This document shows, one piece after another, positions 200 through 62,700 of a DNA stretch of 64,000 nucleotides. The position numbers were made by a program, and so were the translations under genes. The notes under the pieces were generated by a model, which did not search any database, was not told the origin of the DNA, and saw nothing but the letters and a program-made list of their open reading frames with translations. Within the stretch, counting starts at the first letter, position 1. Every line of letters starts with the position of its first letter. The DNA is taken from positions 116,290 through 180,289 of the forward strand of contig BDSI01000160.1 of assembly GCA_003117195.1 (NCBI GenBank), read 5' to 3'. Source of the DNA: Eudorina sp. 2006-703-Eu-15. Lineage: Eukaryota; Chlorophyta; Chlorophyceae; Chlamydomonadales; Volvocaceae.

Positions 200-3100
200 G
201 TAGGTTTCAAGCTCCGGAACCACATCATTGCGGAGCCGTCACTGATGCGGGGCGCCTTTCGGAGGATGGACATCGCGGGGCTGTTCCTGGCCAAGTGAGT
301 GAGAGGCCCCGTCAGGAGCTGTCGGGGGCACATGCGCTGTTACATCTACCCCAACACCTGGCTCATTTTTCGCGCCCGCCACGCCGCAGGGACGACTTCT
401 GGCGGACCGTCCGCTCCGCCTGGCAGCCCGCCTTCTCCGCCCCCAGCCTGGCCGGCTACATGCCGCGGATGCTAGGCTGCGCAGACCTGCTGGCGACGCG
501 GCTGGAGGAGCGGGCGGCGGCGGCGGCGGCGGCGGGGGGCGCGCGCGCCGAGCCGGTCAACATCTGGCGGGAGCTGGGCAGCATGACGCTGCAGGTGGTG
601 GGCTCGACCGCGTACGGGTGAGTGTACGGGTGAGTGTACGGCAGAGGTGACCGTACGCGGCGGTGCCCGAGGATGCAGCAGAGCAGCACCCGCGGCGGGT
701 TATCGCGAGGCCGACAGGGTACAGTTTACCCTCGGCGCCTAACGTATCTCTATCGGCAGATGATGCGACTCTTTATCCGCGGGGGCGCCGCAATTCTGCA
801 CGCGTCCGTTGAAGCCGCGTTTGTAATTTTACAGGTTGGCCCCCACCGTACTGCATTGTACGGATGTACGAACAGGGTCGACTTCCTCACCATGGATGGC
901 GGTGCGGGGCACGAGGAAGCCGTAGGGCTCCCGGGCGACCGGCAGGTGCCACGGGACGCGCCCGCCGCCGCCGCCGCCGCCGGCAAGGCGCCACGGCCGC
1001 CGAAGTCCGTCGCCGTGAACGCCGCCACGACGGGCGCCGCCGCCGCCGCCGCCGCCTCACTGGCCGCGGCGCCCAGGGCGGACGCCGACGTGTCCCAGAT
1101 CACCGCCGCCACCAGCAGCTCGGGCCGGCAGCTGATGCAGGCGTGCGCTGACGTGTTCCGATTCGGAGGCGCCTACACCGGAAGCAGGTGCGGTGGTGAT
1201 GATGATTCATAGAGGTTGTGAACATGTGACGACAGTGGACCCACGGGTCAATAGGTGCGGTCGTCGCGAGGGGAAATACGCATAGGGCCCCTCGTCAGGG
1301 TTGCGTGGCTGCACCCTGGCCTGGCGGATGTGGGGGCGCCCACCTCGTGCGTTGCCTCTTATGGTGGGCATCCCCTTGTCGCGGGCTCGCAGCTCCCCAC
1401 GCGCTTGGATTCGAAGAAATAAAGGAATGAATGGCTGCATCGATGAGCGATTTCAATGATATTCGTACGGAAAAGCAACGATAAGTCGTACCAGATTAGG
1501 AAAATCGTACTGTACGACAACGGCGCCAAAACCGGTCCCTGGTATCCCCGCCAACGTGTCCCCTCGCAGGTACGCCCGTGCCGCGATCCTGCTGCCGGAG
1601 CTGCGACCCCTGCTGTCGTGGCTGGCCTACACGTTCCCCGACCGCCCCTTAAGGCGGGTGCTGCAGGTGCGTGACCCATGGGTCGGACGGGTGCTGTAGG
1701 TGTGTGACCCATGGGTCGGACGGGTGCTGCAGGTGTGTCACCCATGAGTTGGACGATTGCTGCAGGTGCGTGACCCATGGGTCGGACGGATGCTGCAGGT
1801 GTGTTACTCTTGGTGGGCCCCCGCCGTGTTCCCCCGCTCTTCCCGCCCCTCCACAGGCTCGCACCACGCTCCGAAACACCTCCCTGGACCTGATAGCTGA
1901 CTGGGAGGCCAAGCACACTCAGCACTCAGGCAACCGAAAGGGCTCTCCGCTGAGGCGGGGCGGCGCCGGCGGCGCCGCCACAGCTGCGGAGCCGGCGGCG
2001 CCGCCGCAGGGTACCGAATTGGAGCGTGGCGGCGCCGGCGCCGCTGCGACCAAGGCGGCGACGGCGGCGGCGGCGGCGGTCGACGACGCGGGCGGCCGCG
2101 CCCCCGCGGTCGAGCCGGGCAGCTTCCTGGGCCTTATGTTGGCGGCGCGAGACAAGACGTCGGGGGAGGCGCTGGACGATGAGGAGGTGGCGGCGCAGGT
2201 GGGCGGTGGGCGGGGTTGGCGGTTGGCAGGTGGTGTGCGGTATGTGCTCTGTATGGCACCCGCAGTACCCGCAGCAGCAGGAGCCCGCAGCTCATGCGAG
2301 ATGCCTCAGCTGGGTCAGTGTTCGCCCCGCGGGTCAGTGGTCGCCCCGCGGGTCAGTGGTCGCCCCGCGGGTCAGTGGTCGCCCCGCGGGTCAGTGGTCG
2401 CCCCGCGGGTCAGTGGTCGCCCCGCGGGTCAGTGGTCGCCCCGCGGGTCAGTGGTCGCCCCGCGGGTCAGTGGTCGCCCCGCGGGTCAGTGGTCGCCCCG
2501 CGGGTCAGTGGTCGCCCCGCGGGTCAGTGGTCGCACACCCCGCGCGCGTGAACCGCTCCCTTCCTCCGGTCCACAGGTCCAGACGTTCATACTGGCGGGC
2601 TACGAGACCACCGCCAACGCGCTCACGTTCGCCATCCACGGTATCGCGACCCACCCGGAAGGTGAGGGGGGCAGGGGGGGTGGCGCCACCGACCGCCGAC
2701 AACCGACCGCCGACCGCCGACCGCCGCACAGCCGCTGGTATCGCAACGCAGCAAGGACGTGGGAGCCTGCCAGAGGGGCAACAGGCAATGTAAAACCACG
2801 TACCACCTTGCAAAGTACCGCGGCCGTCACATGCGTCGGTCGGTCGCTCGCTGGTCGTCGTGGGGGGGGGCCGCCGCATGTGCGTTCACCGCCCGCCGTG
2901 CTGACTGGACGACCTGGGGTTTTGCGGTGCCGCGACGGTGCGGAGGAAGAAGTTGTGGTAGTTGTTTGTTACAGTTGGAGGGGATCCGGGGCTCCGGAAC
3001 CCCACTGTGAAGAGAATGACGATGATGTTTTCCCACCGTACGGTGGGACGAGGAGCACGCAGCGCCGCGGCCGGCTTGGGCTGATGTGATGTGGCGCCGT

Positions 3101-59700: not shown

Positions 59701-62700
59701 CCTCATCACCGTGTCGTCGGCATTGTCGCTTCCACGCAACGCGGCATGACCAGGAGCGCCGGCGGCGACTCTGGCGGAGCTGCCTTGCGGCGGCGGCGGC
59801 GGCGCCGCCGCCGCCACGGGCCCCAACCGATCCCCGCATCCGCCGCCTTCCACCTGGGCACTATTGACCGTAAGAAGCTGCATCAGCGCATCACCCATGT
59901 CCACGGAGGCGAGATGGCCGACCCGTGGGTCAGTGGAGGTCGCGGAGTGTTGCGGTTGGTTCAGCTCCTGCGTCGAGGCTAGACCCATGGGTCGCGTCAC
60001 TGACTCAGCCCCAACCGTCTCGCCGCCGGTGCGTGCGTCGGTGGCGCCCACATCCGCCTCCTTCACCACCGCCACGGCGACGGCGACGACGGCGCCGCGC
60101 AGCGCCGTTTCGGTTGCGTTCAACGCGGCGCCTCCACCGACCCGTGGGTCCGTCGCCGGGTCTTGGTCGCGCGACGTCAGCAAACGGGGCGCCGGCGGCT
60201 GCGTCATGTGCGGCGCAGGTACCTCCGTAGCCGCCGCCGCCGCCCCGAGCTGCTTGGACCGAGATGCCTGGTCGCTTCCGCCACTGCCGGCGTCGTCAAT
60301 ACGTACACCTCCGCACTGGGGCTGCAGCCAACTGGCATCACCCGGCGAGGCAGCCAGTGCCGTCGCCGCCGCCGCCGCCGCCTCAGCAACAGCAACGATC
60401 CGCCCGACACCGACACTTCCAGCACTACCAGCGACAGCGGTGGTTCCAAGGGCCGACTCGTCCTGGGGTGAGCGGTCCGGCCGCGGCGGGGTCGCGGCCG
60501 ACGACTCGACCGCGTGTGTGACCGTGACCTCGGCCCGGGCGGCCGTACCGGTACCCGGCCGCGCGGAATGCCCCAGTCGCCGCTCGGCCGCCGCGGTCTT
60601 CGCTCTGCAAATCACCGCAGCCAGGGGGGAAGATTCGAGGACCAAGACTGTGTCGCTTTGGTGCGAGGAGCCGTAGCCGGTGCTGCGGCGGCGGAAGGAG
60701 GCGAGGGGACTGCCGCCGGGCTTGAGTCCACTCAAAGCCTGCGGCGGGCGGGGCCGGCCGAGGGTCACGGGCATGACGTCAGGCGTGGCGGGCAGGGCCG
60801 AGGTTTTCCTCGGAGGTTTTCGGTTGGCTCAAGTCGTTAGGTTACATCGAAAACATAAAGGCGGAACGCATGAACGGTGGGTGCGGGTATACACCAACAG
60901 ACCCAATTGCGGATGTTGCGGATATTGCAGGTTTTAAGCGGGGCGAGGCAGTGCGCGAAAAGATGCGTACCTTGCAACTCGCAGCGCCCCATATAGGCGG
61001 CTGCTGCTGCTGCTGCTGCTGCTGTTCCGTTGAACTACTGCACATGTCGCCTGGCCCCGAAAGGCCCGCAGGATGGCTCGGGCATGGCTGTGGCGACAGC
61101 GGCCGTGGTGCAGCGGTGGCGGCGGCGGCTGTCGTCCCCGCCCTGGAGCTCCCCCCCGGGGGCTCCGTCCGCCGCCTCACAGCCACGAGGCCGTCCAGGT
61201 CGCCCAGCAGCTGCGCCGCGTAGTGCTGCTCCCGGGCGCGGGCGAGTGACCCGCGGGTCGACATGAGCGGGTGGGCCAGGGCGGCGGCTCGCCACACCCT
61301 CTGCCGGGCGATGTCGGCCCTCATCGCGGCGGGCGGGGGCAGGGGCAGCTGCCGCAGCATGAGGGCCAACAGCCAGTGCGTCTGGAGCTGGTGCAGCAGA
61401 GGGCTGGAGCCGGGGTGGGACTGGGGAGGGGGCGGGCGGGCGGGTGGGGGCAGGCGCGGGGCGAGGCGGGGGCAGGGGCACGGGTGGGCGCGTAGAGAGA
61501 CCGCGGATGCTGAGGGGGCGAGGCCTCAAACAGGACAGACAGCATTAGACCATCGCTTCTGGGAACCCATTCGGCAAGCGAGGGTGAACTGCCGCACTGC
61601 GACTGACCGCGTTCCCATGTTGTGGTGGTGGTGGTGGACACGGCTGGAACTCATTACGGCGGTCGCCCAGCGAGGGCCGAGGGCACACCGCCCCTGAGCC
61701 TCCGTCCCCTCCCCGCGGCCCTCACCTCCAGTCCCAGGAACAGCAGCCCCGGCACATCCGGATGCACCATGCCCCGGTACAGTACCAGGGAGGGGGCCGA
61801 CCAGCAGCCGCCGGAGGGACCAACTTCACCGCCGCCGCCGCCACCACCACCGCTGCCCGCCACCGCCGCTGATCCCGCCGCATCCGAGCCGCCTCCCTCA
61901 CCCAGCAGCGCCGCCCGCAGCTGCTGACTCAGGAAGGGCATGACCCGTGGGTCGTTGAGGCTGCGCGCCCACACCACCACATGCGGCCCGTCCGCCCCCT
62001 CCACCGCGTCGTCCTCTCCCGCCGCGTCCCCTCCGGCCGCCAGCAACTGCCGCGGCTCCACACTGAACCCCGTCAGCTCCTCGCTGCTTCCCCGCCGTAC
62101 GACCCGCTCCGCCTTCCCCCTGACGTAGGCCCAAAAGCGGCGCTTGGTGGGAGCCCGCAGCATCCGACCCATGGGCCCGGGGGCCGCCACCGTGTAGTGG
62201 GGCTGCAGGGCGGCCTGCAAGGCCCGCCGCCGGGCCGCGTCGAGCAGCGCGGCCCCCGACACGAAGTTGCTCAATGCGGTCACCTTGTGCAGCACATCCG
62301 AACTGGGGTTAACCGCCATGGCTGCGGGCGCGGGGCGGGAGTCCCGTTCCTGAGGACAGGCGCAGATGCGGATGTGGGTGAGGCAGGTGGGGCAGGCGAG
62401 GCAGGTGAGACAGGTGAGGCAGGTGAGGGAGGTGAGGCAGGTGGGGCAGGTGGGGCAGGTGGGGCAGGTGGGGCAGGTGGGGCAGGTGGGGCAGGTGGGG
62501 CAGGTGGGGCAGGTGGGGCAGGTGGGGCAGGTGGGGCAGGTGGGGCAGGTGGGGCAGGTGGGGCAGGTGGGGCAGGTGGGGCAGGTGGGGCAGGTGAGAC
62601 ACTCCACCGGTTTGCGGCGGGGGTAGGAGAGGGTCGCGCAGTCACCGTATTCCAGGTCACCAGGCCCTGTCAACACCGCCAACTCCAAACCTCCACGGCG

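Follow-up and report, generated by a model that had tools for sequence, protein, structure and literature searches.

The 12-bp word GACCCNNGGGTC occurs 23 times in a 64-kb stretch of the nuclear genome of the volvocine alga Eudorina sp. 2006-703-Eu-15 (C160:116290-180289; this whole stretch is called the window), and its excess extends through the whole genome. We give about an even chance to the reading that the word is the recognition site of a putative dimeric DNA-binding protein, similar to the highly iterated palindromes (HIP) of cyanobacteria, and that its copies are made and held by point substitution. According to this proposal the site would be read by a symmetric, sequence-specific protein of the alga, copies would arise by point substitution in existing sequence, whether coding or not, and the complete word would then be held by a force acting on the DNA. 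We infer that a protein reads the word, that this protein is dimeric and that its occupancy of the sites is useful.

All 23 sites claimed in the initial annotation were located, spanning 1238-61953, and all carry a purine (R) followed by a pyrimidine (Y) at the centre (AC 8, AT 7, GT 6, GC 2). Markov models trained on the window (orders 0 to 5) predict 0.17-0.34 sites when all 16 centres are pooled, and the Poisson probability of 23 sites against 0.342 expected is 5e-34. The genome (181,203,499 bp in 3033 contigs) has 9,368 copies of GACCCNNGGGTC against 387 of the reversed control word. The RY centres account for 8,230 copies (AC 2,191; GT 2,196; AT 2,150; GC 1,693), where the respective reversed controls have 20, 20, 11 and 36, i.e. 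87 in sum. The other twelve centres together have 1,138 copies and are thus clearly rarer. Composition or Markov chance is ruled out as a cause by these counts, and the massive over-representation reported from the window, as well as its restriction to RY centres, is confirmed for the whole genome.

A sample of 264 kb, consisting of the window and 20 further stretches (L009-L028, of which L009-L011 were picked for holding sites), was used for comparison with other words. In this sample, the top dispersed half-site of 5-k-5 palindromes is a word of GC-triplet type at every spacer from k = 0 to k = 12 except k = 2, where it is GACCC.

The initial annotation also stated that the centre always keeps the palindrome, as if the symmetry itself were maintained. 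An AC centre reads GT on the other strand and vice versa, so that sites carrying either one are not perfect palindromes. Such sites make up 14 of the 23 in the window and 4,387 of 8,230 (53%) genome-wide, slightly above the share predicted from independence of the two centre bases. Exact symmetry as a constraint is rejected on these counts, and the background level of the paired swap GTCCCRYGGGAC, given below, does not support it either. The word is a GC-rich palindrome far above its composition expectation, as in the HIP class, with just over half of its copies having an asymmetric centre. The correct description of the centre is R then Y, where A and G (T and C) are used about equally. After CCC the sampled DNA favours G (2,097) over A (1,561), so that the A share of R is 0.43 there vs 0.53 in the word.

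Preferences outside the 12 bp were extracted from 51 sites with distinct flanks (102 half-sites), some sites sharing a tandem array. They are symmetric: Y is found at -1 in 86 of the 102 half-sites (p 3e-13) and A at -3 in 42 (p 6e-8). The left and right flanks do not co-vary, as expected for two half-site contacts, and these sites have no strong consensus past -3. The full site is about A-N-Y-GACCC-RY-GGGTC-R-N-T.

Near misses of the word are enriched as well. The core ACCCRYGGGT has 10,698 copies genome-wide (control 1,668), and the outer G and C are present on 8,230 of them (77%); outer-base variants of the core thus number at most 2,468, to be compared with the core control of 1,668. With at most one mismatch there are 19,849 copies (control 3,220), of which 11,619 have exactly one (control 3,133, a 3.7-fold excess). 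The mismatch is at position 2 or 11 in 5,984 of these (51%; 2,982 and 3,002), where the control has 782. The double change that restores the pair as T/A, GTCCCRYGGGAC, is not enriched (122 genome-wide, control 110). For T and A at least, a deviation at positions 2/11 is tolerated on one side but not on both, and the two halves therefore do not act fully independently. This one-sided tolerance, the background level of the T/A swap and the preferences at -1 and -3 all suggest a protein site, and such graded, symmetric and degenerate recognition, being typical of dimeric DNA-binding proteins, points to a putative dimeric reader.

The halves of the word are complementary, and an inverted repeat could in principle be kept for folding into a hairpin or cruciform. 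We give this very little credence. Positions 2 and 11 are the ones that deviate most often, and the RY centre is strongly fixed though it would form the loop. Base pairing between the halves gives no rescue as judged from the T/A swap, the only pair-restoring swap counted.

Constraint on the word was followed in a flavoprotein-like gene present twice in the window. Gene A (38818..45102, plus strand) has a predicted exon to 39618, a predicted exon from 40006 and an open frame at 40564-45102, its splicing and the link to the last frame being predictions; gene B (55912..62248, minus strand) is its inverted paralogue. The duplicated parts, 39078-40340 and 61086-62248, are 96-97% identical in the core exons, with a 652-bp block at 95.7% and a 553-bp block at 96.9% identity, and the long low-complexity tails are hardly alignable at the DNA level. 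Gene A carries site 1 at 39373..39384 (centre AC, N-D-P-R-V-M-P-F) and site 2 at 40167..40178 (centre AC, L-M-S-T-H-G-S). The corresponding sites of gene B are at 61942..61953 (site 1) and 61248..61259 (site 2, centre GC). Two distant C55 paralogues, 39-60% identical in protein depending on the segment, carry both words too. Site 1 is GACCCACGGGTC in all four genes, and the site 2 centres are AC, GC, AT and AT in gene A, gene B and the two C55 paralogues. The gene A search gave a sixth match on C158 (E 8.5e-4) that covers the segment of site 1 and does not contain the word. This match depends on a run of glycines, has little resemblance to a true paralogue and was omitted from the four-paralogue count.

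Rare codons, defined by a usage share under 0.3 in an assumed Chlamydomonas table, were compared where gene A and the C55 copies have the same residue. They are kept in 12 of 12 cases where they overlap the words, vs 18 of 72 outside (Fisher p 8e-7). Counting the near-duplicate second C55 exon once leaves 9 of 9 vs 18 of 72 (p 2e-5). The sole synonymous change within the words is CAC to CAT, located at the degenerate Y. This retention points to a constraint on the DNA, and not only on the protein, in this one flavoprotein-like family.

A constraint on the protein alone would mean that the peptides D-P-[RW]-V or T-[HR]-G-S merely happen to be written with the word. The exchanger D-P-W-V (described below) and the flavoprotein D-P-R-V are indeed conserved in other species. 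Apart from the rare codons, which are kept far more inside the word than outside, this explanation is opposed by how seldom the peptides would be written with the word, the probability being 0.016 for DPRV and 0.078 for DPWV under assumed codon usage. Furthermore, the sites occur in three reading phases and also in apparently non-coding DNA. The occurrence in several coding phases of a volvocine nuclear genome had been noticed initially and is upheld; an origin in the peptides is hardly credible.

The initial annotation had also considered a tiny mobile word, arising by insertion of 12 bp. At five coding sites the alignment to homologues shows no gap of four residues: site 4225..4236 (centre AC) with in-frame D-P-R-V in a cytochrome P450 exon, site 20409..20420 (centre AT) with D-P-W-V in an Na+/H+ exchanger gene, flavoprotein sites 1 and 2, and site 60139..60150 (centre GT) with D-P-R-V in the gene B tail. 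The segment holding the P450 site aligns to positions 351-391 of PF00067, 41 residues to 41, and a close P450 relative on C24 (HHNPDVWPRAAEFIPERF vs HNDPRVWPRAGEFIPERF) is gapless with 96 of 138 bases identical over 46 compared codons. By eye, the exchanger D-P-W-V is also found in three Volvox proteins; its exon has 105 matches in the genome, and only the window's own covers the site residues. Two further coding sites are unclear. At 25142..25153 (S-T-R-G-S, centre AC), where the exchanger gene has a variable loop, the alignment is compatible with insertion or substitution, and 59920..59931 (centre GT, D-P-R-V) in the gene B tail belongs to a longer stretch having no counterpart in the Pleodorina alignment.

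None of the aligned cases is a clean 12-bp insertion. A relic of a mobile element, with the word as a transposon end, a target site or an excision footprint, is largely refuted and very improbable, even though the word occurs in tandem arrays and the two unclear sites lie in stretches whose alignment allows insertion. Over the window and the fetched loci, the surroundings of sites can be aligned only within the A/B pair and between units of one array. Neither shared sequence past the word nor a gap in homologues, as expected for a transposon end, a miniature inverted-repeat transposable element or an insertion footprint, was found, in line with the loss of consensus past -3 and with the five gapless sites. 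Ten long open frames from the sampled stretches were scanned with Pfam; four have a family (PDDEXK_6, PEP-utilizers_C, ABC1, Ribosomal_S8), and none of these is obviously mobile. Accumulation by point mutation instead of insertion, as is the case for DNA uptake sequences, is found at the five gapless sites. Within genes too, single-base changes look to have both made and maintained the copies, as would be expected if a DNA-reading protein required them.

Other volvocine species were compared at the flavoprotein-like gene from proteins alone, which cannot show the DNA word. Sites 1 and 2 align gapless to proteins of Volvox, Edaphochlamys and Pleodorina. In the orthologue from Pleodorina starrii, the peptides at the two core sites are compatible with the word, as is the one at 60139 in the tail, where the D-P-R-V of gene B aligns gapless to D-P-R-V. 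The site 1 peptide is DPRV in Pleodorina, V. reticuliferus and Edaphochlamys. At site 2 Pleodorina has STHGS, V. africanus STRGS or SSRGS, V. reticuliferus SARGS and Edaphochlamys SRHGS or SRGGS; the Volvox and Edaphochlamys peptides are often incompatible with the word. In the tail, R-P-M-G-L of gene B (59982..59993, centre AT) has no match in Pleodorina, and a Pleodorina R-P-T-G-Q sits where gene B has none, about 0.6 such being expected by chance. These mixed matches suggest that site positions turn over. No signature peptide occurs in the tails of five Volvox and Edaphochlamys proteins (3,397 residues; shuffling predicts 0.9), and 2 occur in 2,000 Pleodorina tail residues (0.8 expected; RPTGQ 0.6, DPRV 0.035), both being very small samples. 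The database name of the Pleodorina starrii orthologue (P0009), a WD repeat and HMG-box protein, is probably wrong, since no domain is detected in it by Pfam.

The window is a hotspot: its 23 sites compare with 2.9 RY sites per 64 kb in the genome on average (p 1e-13). On contig C1 (2.76 Mb, 170 RY sites) the spread is near-random when sites within 200 bp are merged, with a Fano factor of 1.13 at 64 kb and a simulated 97.5% limit of 1.43; the merged count of the window is 19 vs 3.6 on C1. Close neighbours are common on C1, where 16 of 169 gaps are below 100 bp, and the inspected ones sit in tandem repeats. One 233-kb desert (C1:1287586-1520852) lacks the RY word, the contig average being one per 16 kb, and two 4-kb samples of it (L065, L066) are GC-poorer at 0.543 and 0.572. 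Among the 17 stretches of 10 kb not chosen for sites (L012-L028), the nine with a GC content of at least 0.63 hold 10 RY sites and the eight of lower GC hold 1 (p 0.01). Coding-like DNA at score 10 contains 57% of sites vs 25% of random points in the window and 33% vs 22% in L009-L028; with stricter coding cut-offs, L009-L028 show no excess of sites in coding-like DNA.

Protein binding and biased repair, both named as possibilities in the initial annotation, survive these comparisons. In the second case an enzyme recognising the word, such as a methylase, a nickase or a mismatch-repair factor, would convert near matches by biased repair or gene conversion, with no use to the cell. Such useless accumulation is what Elhai proposes for HIP sequences (PMC4390886). 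Gain or loss by substitution, the 3.7-fold excess of one-mismatch copies, the near-random dispersal and the presence in exons, apparently non-coding DNA and arrays all fit, and no function is required at 8,230 places. Biased repair alone leaves the A/T share of the centre unexplained in a GC-rich genome. PF01555, the only methyltransferase family searched, has no match in the genome and matches in 11 of 14 control genomes. We consider biased repair a rather unlikely explanation on the whole, and selection for occupancy the more likely holding force. The near-random spacing does not strongly favour either one.

Several observations weigh against a dimeric reader whose sites are kept by selection. 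Independent contributions of the two halves would predict GTCCCRYGGGAC above its background, which the count does not give. The near-random spacing and the presence in tandem arrays fit a blind mutational or repair bias as well. No binding protein was found, the only search made being the one for PF01555. The rare-codon test covers one gene family and depends on an assumed codon-usage table. The place of the word is not conserved in general, since it is present in 0 of 20 fetched P450 exon stretches (18 of which cover the segment by eye; the genome has 87 P450 matches). Site 25142 is not shared with Volvox, which differs in that variable loop. At site 1 Volvox africanus reads DPEV or DARV, which makes the word impossible, and the SSRGS of one of its two copies is incompatible with the word at site 2. 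Finally, further dispersed 10-mers are far above their second-order expectation in the sampled 264 kb, e.g. TCTAAACACA (10 vs 0.13 expected) and TCCGCTGTAA (10 vs 0.48); these are possibly derived from interspersed repeats.

HIP sequences are dispersed through coding and non-coding DNA of cyanobacteria. According to PMC4390886, HIP1 (GCGATCGC) and the alternate HIP sequences are GC-rich, palindromic and hugely over-represented, as is the algal word, and one-base deviations of HIP1 are biased to the first and last base; 51% of the algal one-mismatch copies deviate at positions 2/11 instead. The algal word is not HIP1, as its sequence differs from GCGATCGC, and it is found in a eukaryotic nuclear genome of 181 Mb, has 12 bp, a degenerate RY centre and an additional flank preference. 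A cognate methyltransferase in the genome would be expected of the HIP class; PF01555, the one family searched, has 0 matches. The HIP-like behaviour proposed initially for a green-algal nuclear genome is nevertheless upheld, and the initial interpretation is thereby supported in part: over-representation, genome-wide extent, RY centre and HIP-like behaviour stand, and maintained symmetry and the mobile word are not supported.

Chromosome pairing-centre motifs of C. elegans are short repeated words read by dedicated zinc-finger proteins. They are non-palindromic and concentrated in one region per chromosome, unlike the algal word with its near-random dispersal on C1. The DNA uptake sequences of Haemophilus and Neisseria are built by point mutation and show a steep drop of over-representation from 0 to 1 mismatch (PMC1939737). 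The algal word resembles them in being short, over-represented and apparently built by point mutation; uptake sequences are however not palindromes and serve natural transformation. For SbtR, a homodimeric TetR-type regulator of Thermus thermophilus, TGACCCGCGGGTCA is among the sites from genomic selection (PMC4948773). This is the same dyad as the algal word with its preferred flanks, and by this precedent one dimer can read such a dyad. SbtR is a bacterial regulator with four upstream sites named there, vs thousands of sites in the alga. Nothing relevant on the word, or on such palindromes in genomes of volvocine algae or other eukaryotes, was found in the literature searched, a search that had most subscription papers outside its scope. 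Among publications containing one form of the word, none is on algae by title, and one concerns SbtR.

The remaining sites of the window are distributed as follows. Single sites are at 1238..1249 (centre AC), 12607..12618 (GT), 27780..27791 (AC) and, in a coding-like open frame of 630 codons, 15992..16003 (GC). Five sites are copies in tandem repeats: 1673..1684, 1706..1717 and 1772..1783 (all AT) within a 33-bp array at 1655-1801, and 44749..44760 and 44788..44799 (both AC) in a 39-bp repeat of the gene A tail. The same tail has sites at 42140..42151 (GT, G-P-V-G-Q), 42532..42543 (AT, D-P-W-V) and 43914..43925 (AT, T-H-G-S), and the gene B tail has one at 57641..57652 (GT, T-H-G-S). Two arrays carry one-mismatch copies, with 11 copies of GCCCCGCGGGTC in a 19-bp array at 2312..2534 and three of GACCCACAGGTC in a 35-bp array at 27283..27434. 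A GGGTCG hexamer array of about 90 copies (30284-30813) contains the half-word GGGTC in its unit and no palindrome. High-identity minisatellites with units of 21 bp (49778-49965) and 45 bp (51109-51463) are without the word. The nine named homologues found for genes of the window are all volvocine algal proteins, and the genome family search showed a cluster of about seven tandem P450 genes at C34:286737-348279.

In bacteria, selection, methylation, repair and uptake bias are all still debated as causes of short words iterated across whole genomes. The question would become testable with a clean eukaryotic case, in an organism that can be crossed and for which sister genomes exist. Tentatively, and with some doubt, the word may represent a highly iterated palindrome in the nucleus of a eukaryote, the first of its kind; a putative dimeric protein would read a dyad of about 18 bp about every 20 kb, and the need for it would suffice to fix both rare codons and altered amino acids in genes. 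It would then be common to this Eudorina-like alga and Pleodorina, and lacking or less pronounced in Edaphochlamys and the Volvox species sampled. If true, this would point to a hitherto unrecognised genome-wide DNA-reading system in volvocine algae.

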